DNA of 42,111 bases from Verrucomicrobiia bacterium (lineage in GTDB: Bacteria > Verrucomicrobiota > Verrucomicrobiia > Limisphaerales > DASXHY01). The position numbers were made by a program, and so were the translations under genes. The notes beneath the pieces were generated by a model. That model made no database searches. It was not told the DNA's origin and saw nothing but the letters and a program-made list of their open reading frames with translations. Positions 34,710-38,995 of the stretch are shown here, piece after piece. The stretch spans positions 104,255 to 146,365 of the forward strand of contig DASPIL010000040.1 of assembly GCA_035629175.1 (NCBI GenBank), given 5' to 3'. The stretch's first letter is position 1; each line of letters starts with the position of its first letter.

Positions 34710-34797
34710 TGGTACCGGTGGTCGGACTCGAACCGACACGACTTTTTAGGGTCCCAGGATTTTAAGTCCTGTGCGTCTGCCATTTCGCCACACCGGC
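34710..34797 (-). tRNA. tRNA-Leu (anticodon UAA)
   Basis: On the minus strand this 88-base sequence, including an encoded CCA, folds as a class II tRNA. It has acceptor GCCGGTG/CACCGGT, a D arm with GCG/CGC, anticodon stem CAGGA/TCCTG with loop CTTAAAA (anticodon TAA), a long variable arm with GAC/GTC, and T arm GTCGG/CCGAC with loop TTCGAGT. The discriminator is A73, as expected for leucine. The first acceptor pair is G1-U72, a wobble, where tRNA-Leu normally has G-C. It stands alone between two plus-strand genes. Confidence 0.96.
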
Positions 34798-35016
34798 GTG
34801 AACGATGTCACTGTAATGCGCCCAAAGTTTCCGGCAAATGCTATCACATCGTCGAGCAGGAAATCGGCAAGTGAACCAGCGCTGCTGTGGGCGCAGGGAC
34901 TTTGCCCTTTGGTTGAAAGGGCTCGATTCTGTATTGTTTCGGAACGGGTAATAACCGCGCGCCAACTCACAATGAAACCATGGACCCACAATTCCAGGAA
35001 CTCCTGCGATCCACGC

Positions 35017-35256
35017 TCGATCCCGAAATCTCCCGCTGTGCAGGATGGCGAGCGTTTCTTTGTCGACCGGCTCTGGCCGCGCGGAAAGAAAAAGGCGGCG
35101 CTGGCTCTCACCGACTGGCTCAAGGAGGCGGCGCCCAGCCACGATCTGCGCAAGTGGTTCGGCCACGATTCGAACCGTTGGCAGAAATTCCGCCAGGAGG
35201 CGATTTATGCAGGAAGTCCTTACAAAACGCGGCAGACACGACACACAACCAGTTCC
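35017..35256 (+). pseudogene. Remnant of a DUF488 (YeaO-like) gene
   Basis: In one frame the stretch 35038-35202 encodes a clear DUF488 segment (DGERFFVDRLWPRG, then DWLKEAAPSHDLRKWFGHD and RWQKFRQ). The family's N-terminal strand is missing or diverged, and no ribosome site or sensible start precedes it. Soon after RWQKFRQ the similarity stops. About 30 bases on, another frame (35232-35255) reads ADTTHNQF, resembling the conserved C-terminal 'DTxHNxA' of the family. This fits an internal deletion of roughly 30-40 codons with a frameshift. The intact family is about 115-125 residues. The esterase start lies at the end of the remnant. The rest of the 34798-35256 gap shows no gene. Confidence 0.72.
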
Positions 35257-37074
35257 ATGACTCACCGATCCTTCGATTCGCTCACCGTTCGATCCATTGT
35301 AGTTGCCGCGATCTTCATTCTCATGCCTGGCCTTGCTCGCGCGCAAACTGCCCTCACCCTTGTGACAAACCAGGGCGCTCGGCTGATTTTCAAGGCGCAG
35401 CCGCGGGACGGCGCCTATCCAGGCGATCACAAAATCACTGTCATTCTGCCGCCCGGATATGAGTCGTCTTCAAGAAGGTATCCCGTGCTGTATTCCTTCG
35501 ACACGCTCGACCTCAGCCGGGAACGCGACGCACTGATACGCGAACGATTCATCGAGCCGATCATCCTCGTGGCTGTCGATAACCGCACACCCCGTTCACG
35601 ACGATACGATTTAACTCCGACGCAAATACCCGGAATATCGGAGCCAACCGGAGGACTCTCCAACTTCATGAAGGTCCTGATTCACGATATCAAACCGCAC
35701 ATCGATGCCCACTTTCGCACCTTGCCCGATGCTTCCAACACCGGCGTCACGGGTTTTTCATTGGGTGGCTTGGCGTCGTTTCTGATTGGAACGCAGCATC
35801 CGGAAATCTTTGGCCGAATCGGTGCGATGGAACCGGCTGTCTGGTGGGGAGGCTCGTGGGCTTCTGTCGAAAACTTTCGGGACCGTCCGTTCAAAGCCCA
35901 AAAGCCGCGGATATGGATCATGGGATCAGAGTTGGACTCGGCAAATGCTTGGAAGGCTATTCGACTGACCGCCGCGACCTTTTTGCAAAAGGGCTGGGTT
36001 GAAGGCGACGAGCTTGTATTTTACCAGGTTCACAACATGACGCATGGATGGGCGTCCTGCGCGACGCAAATCCGTGACATGCTGTATTTTCTCTTCAGGA
36101 CCAAAAAACCAGAACTCGTCGACGCACGTTTGAACATTACCCACGGCGATCAAAACAAACCTTTGCGGCTTTGGGAAACCGGCGAATACGCGAACCTCTG
36201 CCTGGACCTCTTCTATCGCGGCGGATTCCGCGCCACCGCCATTGCACCCGCGTTAATTTCGAGTGATCCGAAAATTGTGGCCGTTGGCAATCCTGCATTG
36301 GGCCAACTGTGGCCGCAGGGAAATGGCTGGGCGACAGTCTCCAGCAAATACAAAGGGGTAAGGTCATCCCTCGATGTGGAAGGTTTCGAATGGAGAGATC
36401 ATCCGCGTTTTCCGATTGTATCGAATGATACTGACGTGCGGGTCGACGGGGATCTCGCCGAATGGACGAAGCTTCCGTTCTCCTCGACCCGGGGGCGCGA
36501 TCACTCCGCATCGACGAACGGTTTCGAGTTCAGTGTCTCGATGAATGCGTCAAACCTCTACGTCGCGGTTCAAGTCAAGGACACCTTCCTCAGCTTTCAG
36601 CCGACCCTCGGTGAGAAATTCCATCAGGATGGCCTGGAAATCACGGTCGATCCCCGTCCTGATCCCGTCCGGTCCATGGGCAGGGGCTACGAGAAATACT
36701 TCGACTTCATCTGCATCCGGCTGGCGCCGAGCGAAACCACCGCCGAGGTAATCCTCTCGCGCTACGACCAGTTCCTGCCGCCCGTGCCGGTTGGCGTTGA
36801 TGTGGCGATCGGGAAACGCGAAGCAGGTTATTCGGTCGAGATCTCGATGCCCCTGCGTTTGTTGCAATCCATTTATCGGGACGCTCCAAAAGGATTTCAT
36901 TGGAACGGGTACAAACCGGGGTCGGATGAATCGCAATCGGCGGACTGGGAGCGGTTCCGTTTGAACATCGGCCAATACGACAAGGACAGGGAGGGCAAGA
37001 TTCAGGAGATTTGGTGGCAGCCGCCATGGGACGGACCCAACAACTTTCCGGGCTCCGGCACTTTCACCCGCTGA
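35257..37074 (+). CDS. Secreted esterase (alpha/beta hydrolase) with C-terminal CBM9-like domain
   Basis: This 605-residue exported protein has a signal peptide (to about 30, GLARAQ). Residues 40-300 form an esterase-D type alpha/beta hydrolase: TVILPPGYES, PVLYSFDTLD, the nucleophile elbow GFSLGG with Ser168, IMGSELDSANAW and a possible catalytic His in HNMTHGW. After a beta-rich linker, residues about 395-600 resemble a CBM9/DOMON carbohydrate-binding domain (VRVDGDLAEWTKLPF; NLYVAVQVKD; QDGLEITVDPRPDP; GYSVEISMPL). This suggests removal of acyl or feruloyl groups from polysaccharide. ATG 35257 is the first start with a signal peptide; the in-frame codons before it come from the DUF488 remnant and a tRNA. 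The 277 bases after it hold no convincing gene. Confidence 0.88.
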   Translation: MTHRSFDSLTVRSIVVAAIFILMPGLARAQTALTLVTNQGARLIFKAQPRDGAYPGDHKITVILPPGYESSSRRYPVLYSFDTLDLSRERDALIRERFIEPIILVAVDNRTPRSRRYDLTPTQIPGISEPTGGLSNFMKVLIHDIKPHIDAHFRTLPDASNTGVTGFSLGGLASFLIGTQHPEIFGRIGAMEPAVWWGGSWASVENFRDRPFKAQKPRIWIMGSELDSANAWKAIRLTAATFLQKGWVEGDELVFYQVHNMTHGWASCATQIRDMLYFLFRTKKPELVDARLNITHGDQNKPLRLWETGEYANLCLDLFYRGGFRATAIAPALISSDPKIVAVGNPALGQLWPQGNGWATVSSKYKGVRSSLDVEGFEWRDHPRFPIVSNDTDVRVDGDLAEWTKLPFSSTRGRDHSASTNGFEFSVSMNASNLYVAVQVKDTFLSFQPTLGEKFHQDGLEITVDPRPDPVRSMGRGYEKYFDFICIRLAPSETTAEVILSRYDQFLPPVPVGVDVAIGKREAGYSVEISMPLRLLQSIYRDAPKGFHWNGYKPGSDESQSADWERFRLNIGQYDKDREGKIQEIWWQPPWDGPNNFPGSGTFTR

Positions 37075-37351
37075 TATTCACCAAATCATGCGCGTTCGTT
37101 GGCGACCTCGCGCGCTGACTCGCACTAACGGCGCATCCATGCGTGGAGTCCTCATTGACTCAGAGCTCCCCGACGACGTCATCGTTCATTTACTTCATCT
37201 TGCGGTTCCGTTTCCTCATCCCCGCGTGATGACCAGCCGGGACAACTCCTGTGTCCCCGTTGATTCGCCGCTACAGGACTTCACGGCGCTTATCAGTATG
37301 TAGAAAAAACTCTCCGATTCTTTGTCACCTCAGCGCGTGATCTGACCACTT

Positions 37352-38995
37352 ATGCGCGATATGATGACCACCACGATGTCCCCGCGGGCCAACAATGATG
37401 CAGACCTGGTTTCCGAAAGCCTGGCGGGGAATCGCGACGCCTTCGGACAGATTGTTTCGCGATATCAGTCGCTCATTTGCTCGCTCGCATACAGCGCCAC
37501 TGGAAGCCTCGGCGCCAGCGAGGACCTCGCCCAAGAAACCTTCATCACCGCATGGAACCGGCTGCGGCACCTGCGCGAAAAAGACAAGCTGCGCGCGTGG
37601 CTGTGCGGGATTGCTCGGAATCGGATCAAAAATAGCCTGCGACGCGAAGGCCGCGACCCTGTCCGCACTGCCGAAACCCTGGACGCCCTCTTCGAGTCGG
37701 CTTCGCCGGATCCACTGCCGCACGAACAAGCAATTGGAAAAGAGGAGGAAGCGATTCTCTGGCGCTCGCTCGCACACATTCCCGAAACCTATCGCGAACC
37801 GCTCGTCCTGTTCTATCGCGAACATCAATCCATCGAAACCGTCGCGCACTCTTTGGATTTGAGCGAAGACACGGTCAAACAACGGTTATCCCGCGGACGA
37901 AATTTATTGCACGAGCAAGTGCTTGCCTTCGTCGAACGCGCACTGGAGCGGAGCAATCCCGGCAGGACATTTACAGTTGGGGTGCTGGCCGCCTTGCCGG
38001 CGCTGACGTTATCCGCGCAAGCAGCCACGATCGGTGCCATCGCAGCCAAAGGAACAGGCACCGCCAAGACCGCGGGAGCACTCGGAGTTGGGGCGGTTTT
38101 TCTCGGGCCCGTGCTCGCAATTTTTGGAAACTACCTCGGCTATCGTTTAAGCCTCGACGGCGCCACTTCCGATCCGGAGCGCGCCTTCATCCGTAGGTTC
38201 TATCAATGGCTCCTGGGTTGCATCGTCGGTTTCATGCTCTTGTACCTGGCACTCTTCGCCGCAAGGACTCTGATCTCAGAGTTCAATCCACGGCTGTTCG
38301 TCCTGCTGTTGATCGGAATCGCAACATCGCAAGCGATCGGCCTCATCGCGTTGTGTTGCTGGGGCGCATGGCGCGAACGCTGCATTGCCGATGCGATAAA
38401 ATCGGAGGCTCCGCCAGCGGCGCGGATCAAGCCAGCCTGGGAATATCGCAGCTCACTAACGCTGTTTGGCTGGCCCCTCGTGCATATTCGCATCGGTGGC
38501 GATCTCGCTGAGCGCCGCACGCCGGTCAAAGCATGGATTGCCGCGGGCGACATCGCGATCGGCCTGGCATTCGCGTTCGGCGGTGTTGCGATGGCTCCGA
38601 TCAGTGTCGGCGGGCTTGCGATCGGGCTTCTTTCCTGGGGCGGATTCGCAGTGGGGATGGCTGCGTGGGGCGGCTTGGCACTCGGTGGGTTTGCGATGGG
38701 TGGATTGGCCTTGGGATGGCAGGCGTTTGGTGGATGTGCCATCGCATGGCAGGCCGCGGTGGGCGGCGCGGCGGTGGCGAAGGATTTTGCGCTCGGTGGG
38801 TTTGCCCATGCCGCGGAAGCTAACAATCAAATTGCTGCGGGGGTCATCGAACCGATGCCCTTCTTCAGTTCCGGCGGCTTCATTTTTCATCACATGATCT
38901 GGCTGAACTTGATCTGGGTGATCCCGACGGCGCTCTGGTGGTGGTTGCTGCGAATTGGCAACCGCCGAAACGCCAGCAGCCAGTGCATCCGGTGA
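37352..38995 (+). CDS. ECF sigma factor fused to a multi-span membrane region with decapeptide GG repeats
   Basis: This 547-residue protein starts with a full ECF sigma factor: region 2 at about 25-98 (QIVSRYQSLICSLAY, SEDLAQETFITAWNRL, LRAWLCGIARNRI) and region 4 at about 133-190 (YREPLVLFYREHQS, DLSEDTVKQRLSRGRN). From about 205 to 545 it is hydrophobic, with several probable transmembrane helices (208-222, 245-262, 288-305, 315-337, 515-535). Between about 410 and 483 lies a tandem repeat of ten residues, GG-x-A-hydrophobic-x5, with GG pairs at 410, 420, 430, 440, 450 and 460. The layout implies a sigma factor held at the membrane and released or altered by a signal. No anti-sigma gene is adjacent. 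The function of the repeats is unknown. Confidence 0.88.
   Translation: MRDMMTTTMSPRANNDADLVSESLAGNRDAFGQIVSRYQSLICSLAYSATGSLGASEDLAQETFITAWNRLRHLREKDKLRAWLCGIARNRIKNSLRREGRDPVRTAETLDALFESASPDPLPHEQAIGKEEEAILWRSLAHIPETYREPLVLFYREHQSIETVAHSLDLSEDTVKQRLSRGRNLLHEQVLAFVERALERSNPGRTFTVGVLAALPALTLSAQAATIGAIAAKGTGTAKTAGALGVGAVFLGPVLAIFGNYLGYRLSLDGATSDPERAFIRRFYQWLLGCIVGFMLLYLALFAARTLISEFNPRLFVLLLIGIATSQAIGLIALCCWGAWRERCIADAIKSEAPPAARIKPAWEYRSSLTLFGWPLVHIRIGGDLAERRTPVKAWIAAGDIAIGLAFAFGGVAMAPISVGGLAIGLLSWGGFAVGMAAWGGLALGGFAMGGLALGWQAFGGCAIAWQAAVGGAAVAKDFALGGFAHAAEANNQIAAGVIEPMPFFSSGGFIFHHMIWLNLIWVIPTALWWWLLRIGNRRNASSQCIR

Follow-up and report, generated by a model that had tools for sequence, protein, structure and literature searches.

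The open reading frame at positions 37352-38995 (plus strand) of the window, that is, of the whole stretch of 42,111 nucleotides that was analysed, encodes a protein of 547 amino acids, or of 544 amino acids from the likely start codon at 37361; residues are numbered here from ATG 37352. The N-terminal part of this protein is a complete ECF sigma factor (sigma-70 group 4): sigma-70 region 2 (residues 35-101, positions 37454-37654; PF04542, E 3.5e-17) and region 4 type 2 (residues 135-184, 37754-37903; PF08281, E 1.6e-9) were found above the Pfam cut-off and TIGR02937 (E 4.8e-25) above its own, and Pfam returned no match for region 3. ATG 37361 (MMTTTM...) matches the start of most close homologues, which begin with MMTT or MITT at the same place. 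Since ATG 37352 falls within the -10-like part of a conserved promoter-like element, the gene probably extends from 37361 to 38995. In the tail, neither a FecR-like nor a zinc-binding anti-sigma domain was found with Pfam at E values up to 1, and the translation contains no HxxxCxxC motif. A neighbouring gene is shared by close relatives only and no gene family is common to the neighbourhoods of the sigma genes across the homologues, so there is no conserved anti-sigma partner. Upstream in the window, a truncated DUF488-like segment and a putative esterase carrying a CBM9-like domain lie in a single open frame (34771-37074), in which the likely start of the esterase is internal; a tRNA-Leu gene on the minus strand (34710-34797) overlaps the first bases of the frame.

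Region 4 is followed by several hydrophobic segments, as judged from hydropathy and charge averaged over 28 homologues (approximately residues 206-228, 241-262, 282-304 and 313-338; 37967-38365), from which we infer about four true membrane spans. This region of about four helices is common to sister sigma factors that lack the repeat described below. K/R-rich stretches at about residues 262-281 and 334-362 suggest that the C-terminal module begins on the cytoplasmic side, and in proteins in which the same module stands behind a cytoplasmic kinase its start must likewise be cytoplasmic. Between residues 406 and 454, approximately, the homologues carry on average fewer than 0.05 charged residues per window of 19 residues, a near absence of charge which makes a membrane or a tightly packed setting likely. 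The averaged profiles also show a last hydrophobic segment (residues 512-534, 38885-38953), and the K/R-rich C-terminus behind it suggests either that the module crosses the membrane or that this last segment does not span it.

The most conspicuous feature of the tail is a strictly spaced repeat. GG pairs occur in the translation at residues 382, 410, 420, 430, 440, 445, 450, 460, 471, 482 and 508. The sequence-only reading had reported such pairs every ten residues from 410 to 460, and this was confirmed: none of 100,000 composition-preserving shuffles of residues 383-490 yielded six GG pairs in step at a spacing of exactly ten, the best reaching five in step (3 times in 100,000). The decapeptide GG-x-A-hydrophobic-x5 proposed on that occasion holds as a register, but the basic unit is the pentad x-h-A-h-G, two of which make up the ten residues; in every second pentad the first residue is mostly G, and this produces the ten-residue period. 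Self-similarity peaks at lags of 5, 10, 15 and 20 residues and is highest at 10, and there are 5 glycine pairs at a lag of four residues, 11 at five and 15 at ten. The array comprises about 19 pentads over residues 394-488 (38531-38815, including the GG pairs at 410-483) and reads WIAAG DIAIG .. AFAFG GVAMA PISVG GLAIG LLSWG GFAVG MAAWG GLALG GFAMG GLALG WQAFG GCAIA ..; the array seen initially is thus real, but it starts earlier, at about residue 394, and contains an additional GG at 445 that had been missed. Position 3 is A, S or G in 85-89% and position 5 is G, A or S in 82-92% of the pentads, and large hydrophobic residues occupy positions 2 and 4 in about 70-80%; the counts come from a simple greedy cutting script, which handled a few of the sigma sequences poorly.

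Proteins with the same layout, i.e. sigma regions 2 and 4, about four hydrophobic helices and the repeat, are found in at least two orders of Verrucomicrobiota (38 distinct proteins), and the named records are all from Verrucomicrobia, including subdivision 3, with one exception labelled 'uncultured bacterium'. Across 28 divergent sigma fusions the register is nearly fixed with few gaps in the repeat, so that the ten-residue period is kept in the homologues rather than lost, as the sequence-only reading had considered it might be. G is invariant at 410, 420, 425, 445, 450 and 455. The array is framed by an N-terminal signature (W-EYRSxxxLxGxPLVHI...PVKAWIAxGD, residues 363-400, 38438-38551) and a C-terminal cap (residues 480-505, 38789-38866) in which A480 and N491 are invariant and A...FF follows; P375, W395 and A397 are likewise present in all 28 sequences, and Y365 in 26 of them. 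In its main outline, a complete sigma factor joined to a repeat, the initial description stands, with the repeat now seen to be conserved and to lie beside hydrophobic helices.

Eleven sister sigma entries belong to the same tethered family and lack the repeat; several of them carry other membrane tails and some are fragments. On an unrooted tree of 46 sequences, presence or absence of the repeat requires only 3 changes (none of 500 label shuffles was as low), and this marks the tail as an ancient module that can be replaced; the simplest reading of the tree would be one gain, then losses or replacements. The sigma family was detected at E below 1e-60 in 21 of 188 genomes of the class, and the module was matched in 22 of 194 genomes of the phylum and, by profile, in 11 of 58 relatives. 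The host genome contains a second repeat-bearing sigma factor (G000:C25:12988-14619; L002, L105), which is 50% identical and has its own promoter dyad. The tails of two sister sigma factors (L011 and L132) resemble by eye the extracytoplasmic domain of FtsH, and Pfam named none for L011. Another sigma gene with a perfect dyad (L014/L100; G043:C35:73330-73590) has an open frame of only 89 amino acids and is possibly broken or affected by an assembly frameshift.

The module is not restricted to sigma factors. It occurs in sigma fusions, kinases and zinc-ribbon proteins, all of which share the N-terminal motif YRSxxxLxGxPLxHI. It stands behind zinc-ribbon and Ser/Thr kinase domains at eight loci (L042, L044, L048, L058, L067, L078, L079 and L081) and in small zinc-ribbon proteins from records labelled delta-proteobacteria, Chloroflexi and Gammaproteobacteria (L043, L047 and L049); an Omnitrophota record (L046) carries it without a zinc ribbon. 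The records of kinase and standalone modules are mostly metagenome-assembled and their phylum labels are provisional. Outside the sigma fusions the module opens with YRS/YKSxxxxFGWPLVHI...RVAKGIIAIGD and, in kinase and standalone members, often closes with DPxAxxFF. In a variant form Q replaces the second G (L043, L046 and L049), and in two of these loci (L043:3758-4390 and L046:3974-4321) Gln recurs every ten residues (IGQFAIG), with some eleven-residue units. Searches of Pfam, NCBIfam and PDB sequences with the module gave nothing significant and no family; a GLTT repeat (E 0.008, below the cut-off) and a phage tail fibre (E 0.19) were taken as composition matches. Plasmids and phages searched with the standalone members gave zero matches, and a literature text search for the repeat strings found none. 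The occurrence of the module on kinases as well as on sigma factors supports a role in sensing or localisation. The repeat that had been suspected of being a sensor is real, conserved and also fused to kinases, and sensing would be its predicted function.

With regard to the fold, the periodic signal in hydropathy, volume and conservation over residues 397-466 lies at 2.5 and 5 residues and is almost nil at 3.6. This speaks against a glycine zipper or an amphipathic helix and favours a conformation that is extended and repeating. The glycine-zipper helix bundle offered by the sequence-only reading is contradicted by this absence of a 3.6- or 4-residue period and by the glycine pair counts at lags 4, 5 and 10. 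For the beta solenoid named as the other option, a solenoid-like fold would fit the pentad and decad period, but AlphaFold2 produced no usable model, with a pLDDT of 22-27 over the repeat when the full protein was modelled with 10 sequences. One standalone relative, modelled from its single sequence, was returned as a long helix with low confidence (mean pLDDT 57). Pentapeptide-repeat proteins, which form a right-handed quadrilateral beta-helix with the consensus A(D/N)LXX, are likewise built of tandem five-residue units, but the unit here is x-h-A-h-G and far more hydrophobic, and matches to that Pfam family were absent at E up to 1 or 5 in the scanned proteins.

A conserved dyad, TGTCACC-N16-[CG]CAC, is found shortly upstream of the start codons of nearly all 49 homologous sigma genes. 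In the window, the predicted autoregulatory ECF promoter (37323-37349, plus strand) consists of TGTCACC at 37323-37329 (-35-like), 16 nucleotides and CCAC at 37346-37349 (-10-like), and ends 11 bases before ATG 37361, so that the message would be nearly leaderless. The strict dyad is present in 26 of the 49 genes, whereas shuffled upstream regions averaged 0.06 and never exceeded 1, and most of the other genes have TGTCACC with a variant second part; five other ECF genes, a small control, all lack the dyad. When up to one mismatch to a relaxed pattern is allowed, the dyad precedes only the 37352-38995 gene and its paralogue in the 5.4-Mb host genome; matches with three mismatches were at control level and were discarded. 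Across 58 relatives the dyad is rare and several of the matches again precede sigma genes. A scan for housekeeping promoters near the 37352-38995 gene found none. The confinement of the dyad to the gene and its paralogue suggests that the sigma factor probably activates itself through TGTCACC-N16-CCAC, a reading to which the conservation of the element lends good support; the dyad would be recognised by its own sigma factor, although another sigma factor could read it instead. At one locus (L033:1832-2608), a TPR-like, probably exported protein is encoded just upstream of the sigma gene behind a convincing dyad, TGTCACCT-N15-CCACCTATG, and is a candidate second target.

The evidence leaves us evenly balanced on a reading in which the protein is an ECF sigma factor that is tethered to the membrane and activates itself, with the exchangeable C-terminal module acting as sensor or clamp. 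The sigma part would be tethered by the roughly four hydrophobic helices common to the larger sigma family, and the module would form a compact, non-helical, solenoid-like pentad repeat with N- and C-terminal caps in or on the membrane. As long as no signal arrives, the tail would hold the sigma part at the membrane; once the module senses a change, the sigma part would be freed by proteolysis or a conformational change, and would then act on its own TGTCACC-N16-CCAC promoter and amplify the response. Such a protein would be a one-protein switch without an evident separate anti-sigma factor. The presence of the module behind Ser/Thr kinases and zinc ribbons indicates that it pairs with signalling outputs. 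Against a switch speak the lack of a recognised anti-sigma domain in the tail and the helical single-sequence model; moreover, the basic circuit can do without the repeat, as is shown by sister sigma factors that possess the dyad and the helices and lack it. More tentatively, the repeat may represent an unnamed, widespread sensory module of Gly-Ala pentads, a membrane-embedded non-helical repeat plugged into ECF sigma, Ser/Thr kinase and zinc-ribbon outputs, the sigma form of which would be a one-gene, self-amplifying transmembrane circuit without a separate anti-sigma factor; this is possible, on balance doubtful.

Other explanations of the repeat were weighed against these readings. The very hydrophobic and nearly charge-free stretch from residue 406 to about 454, together with the helical model of the standalone relative and the fact that sister proteins manage with other membrane tails, would be compatible with a mere membrane anchor of closely packed, Gly/Ala-rich helices that senses nothing, control being exerted by the helices beside the sigma part. 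Such helices should not lack a 3.6-residue period and keep sharp periods of 2.5, 5 and 10 residues across families; moreover, small zinc-ribbon proteins carry the module without any other obvious membrane helix, and fixed caps and a near-constant register exceed the needs of an anchor, so that we consider this rather unlikely. Somewhat less probable still is a self-associating module in which a flat G/A/S face stacks between molecules and clusters sigma factors or kinases at the membrane, with the assembly state setting activity. The predominance of small residues at pentad positions 3 and 5 (82-92%) and of mostly large hydrophobic ones at 2 and 4 is what such a face calls for, and the Gln in every tenth position of the L043 and L046 variants suggests ladder-like stacking, but such a pattern would also allow stacking inside a single chain. 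Finally, residues 383-490 have a simple composition, with 29 Ala and 24 Gly among the 108 residues, and the GG spacing could be a functionally meaningless by-product of low-complexity, Gly/Ala-rich sequence. This we regard as very improbable, since the shuffles never matched the GG run, the six glycines invariant in 28 divergent homologues contradict it, and the module is joined to kinases too.

Among known systems, IutY (ECF243) and ECF48, ECF52 and ECF53 are ECF sigma factors with a fused membrane anti-sigma tail, and release by proteolysis was shown for IutY and proposed for ECF48/52/53 (PMC8999054). The present protein would operate in a similar way to them, and together with ECF41 they set a precedent for regulatory tails fused to ECF sigma factors. 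They share with the present protein an ECF sigma factor and a membrane-spanning C-terminal extension in one chain, the spans being predicted here from hydropathy; their tails, however, are a fused anti-sigma factor or zinc-finger domain, whereas the tail described here consists of about four helices and the pentad repeat, with neither domain recognised. ECF41 has a fused C-terminal SnoaL-like domain and the promoter TGTCACA-N16-CGTC (PMC3426412), and is similar in its fused C-terminal regulator, the lack of an anti-sigma gene, a TGTCAC-type -35 and very few detectable targets. It differs in that its domain is soluble and SnoaL-like and its -10 is CGTC, compared to no SnoaL match (Pfam, E up to 1), a -10-like CCAC and a -35-like TGTCACC here. 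As the defining domain was recognised for neither group, we assign the protein to neither and describe it as an ECF sigma factor whose membrane tail belongs to the same chain. In planctomycetes, WD40 repeats are found on Ser/Thr kinases and on ECF sigma factors (PMC8567305), again a repeat module on ECF sigma factors in a lineage with expanded Ser/Thr kinases, but WD40 is an unrelated, well-known repeat family. ECF sigma factors without an apparent nearby anti-sigma gene are a recognised open question (PMC8103513). The sigma family described here offers a compact case, in which one protein combines the sigma factor with a membrane tether and a C-terminal module that can be replaced, and for which a target promoter is predicted; it is a plausible self-contained membrane sensor. 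Since the module is without a match in the searched family libraries but turns up on both sigma factors and kinases, knowledge of its structure or ligand would help to understand many signalling proteins that lack annotation.
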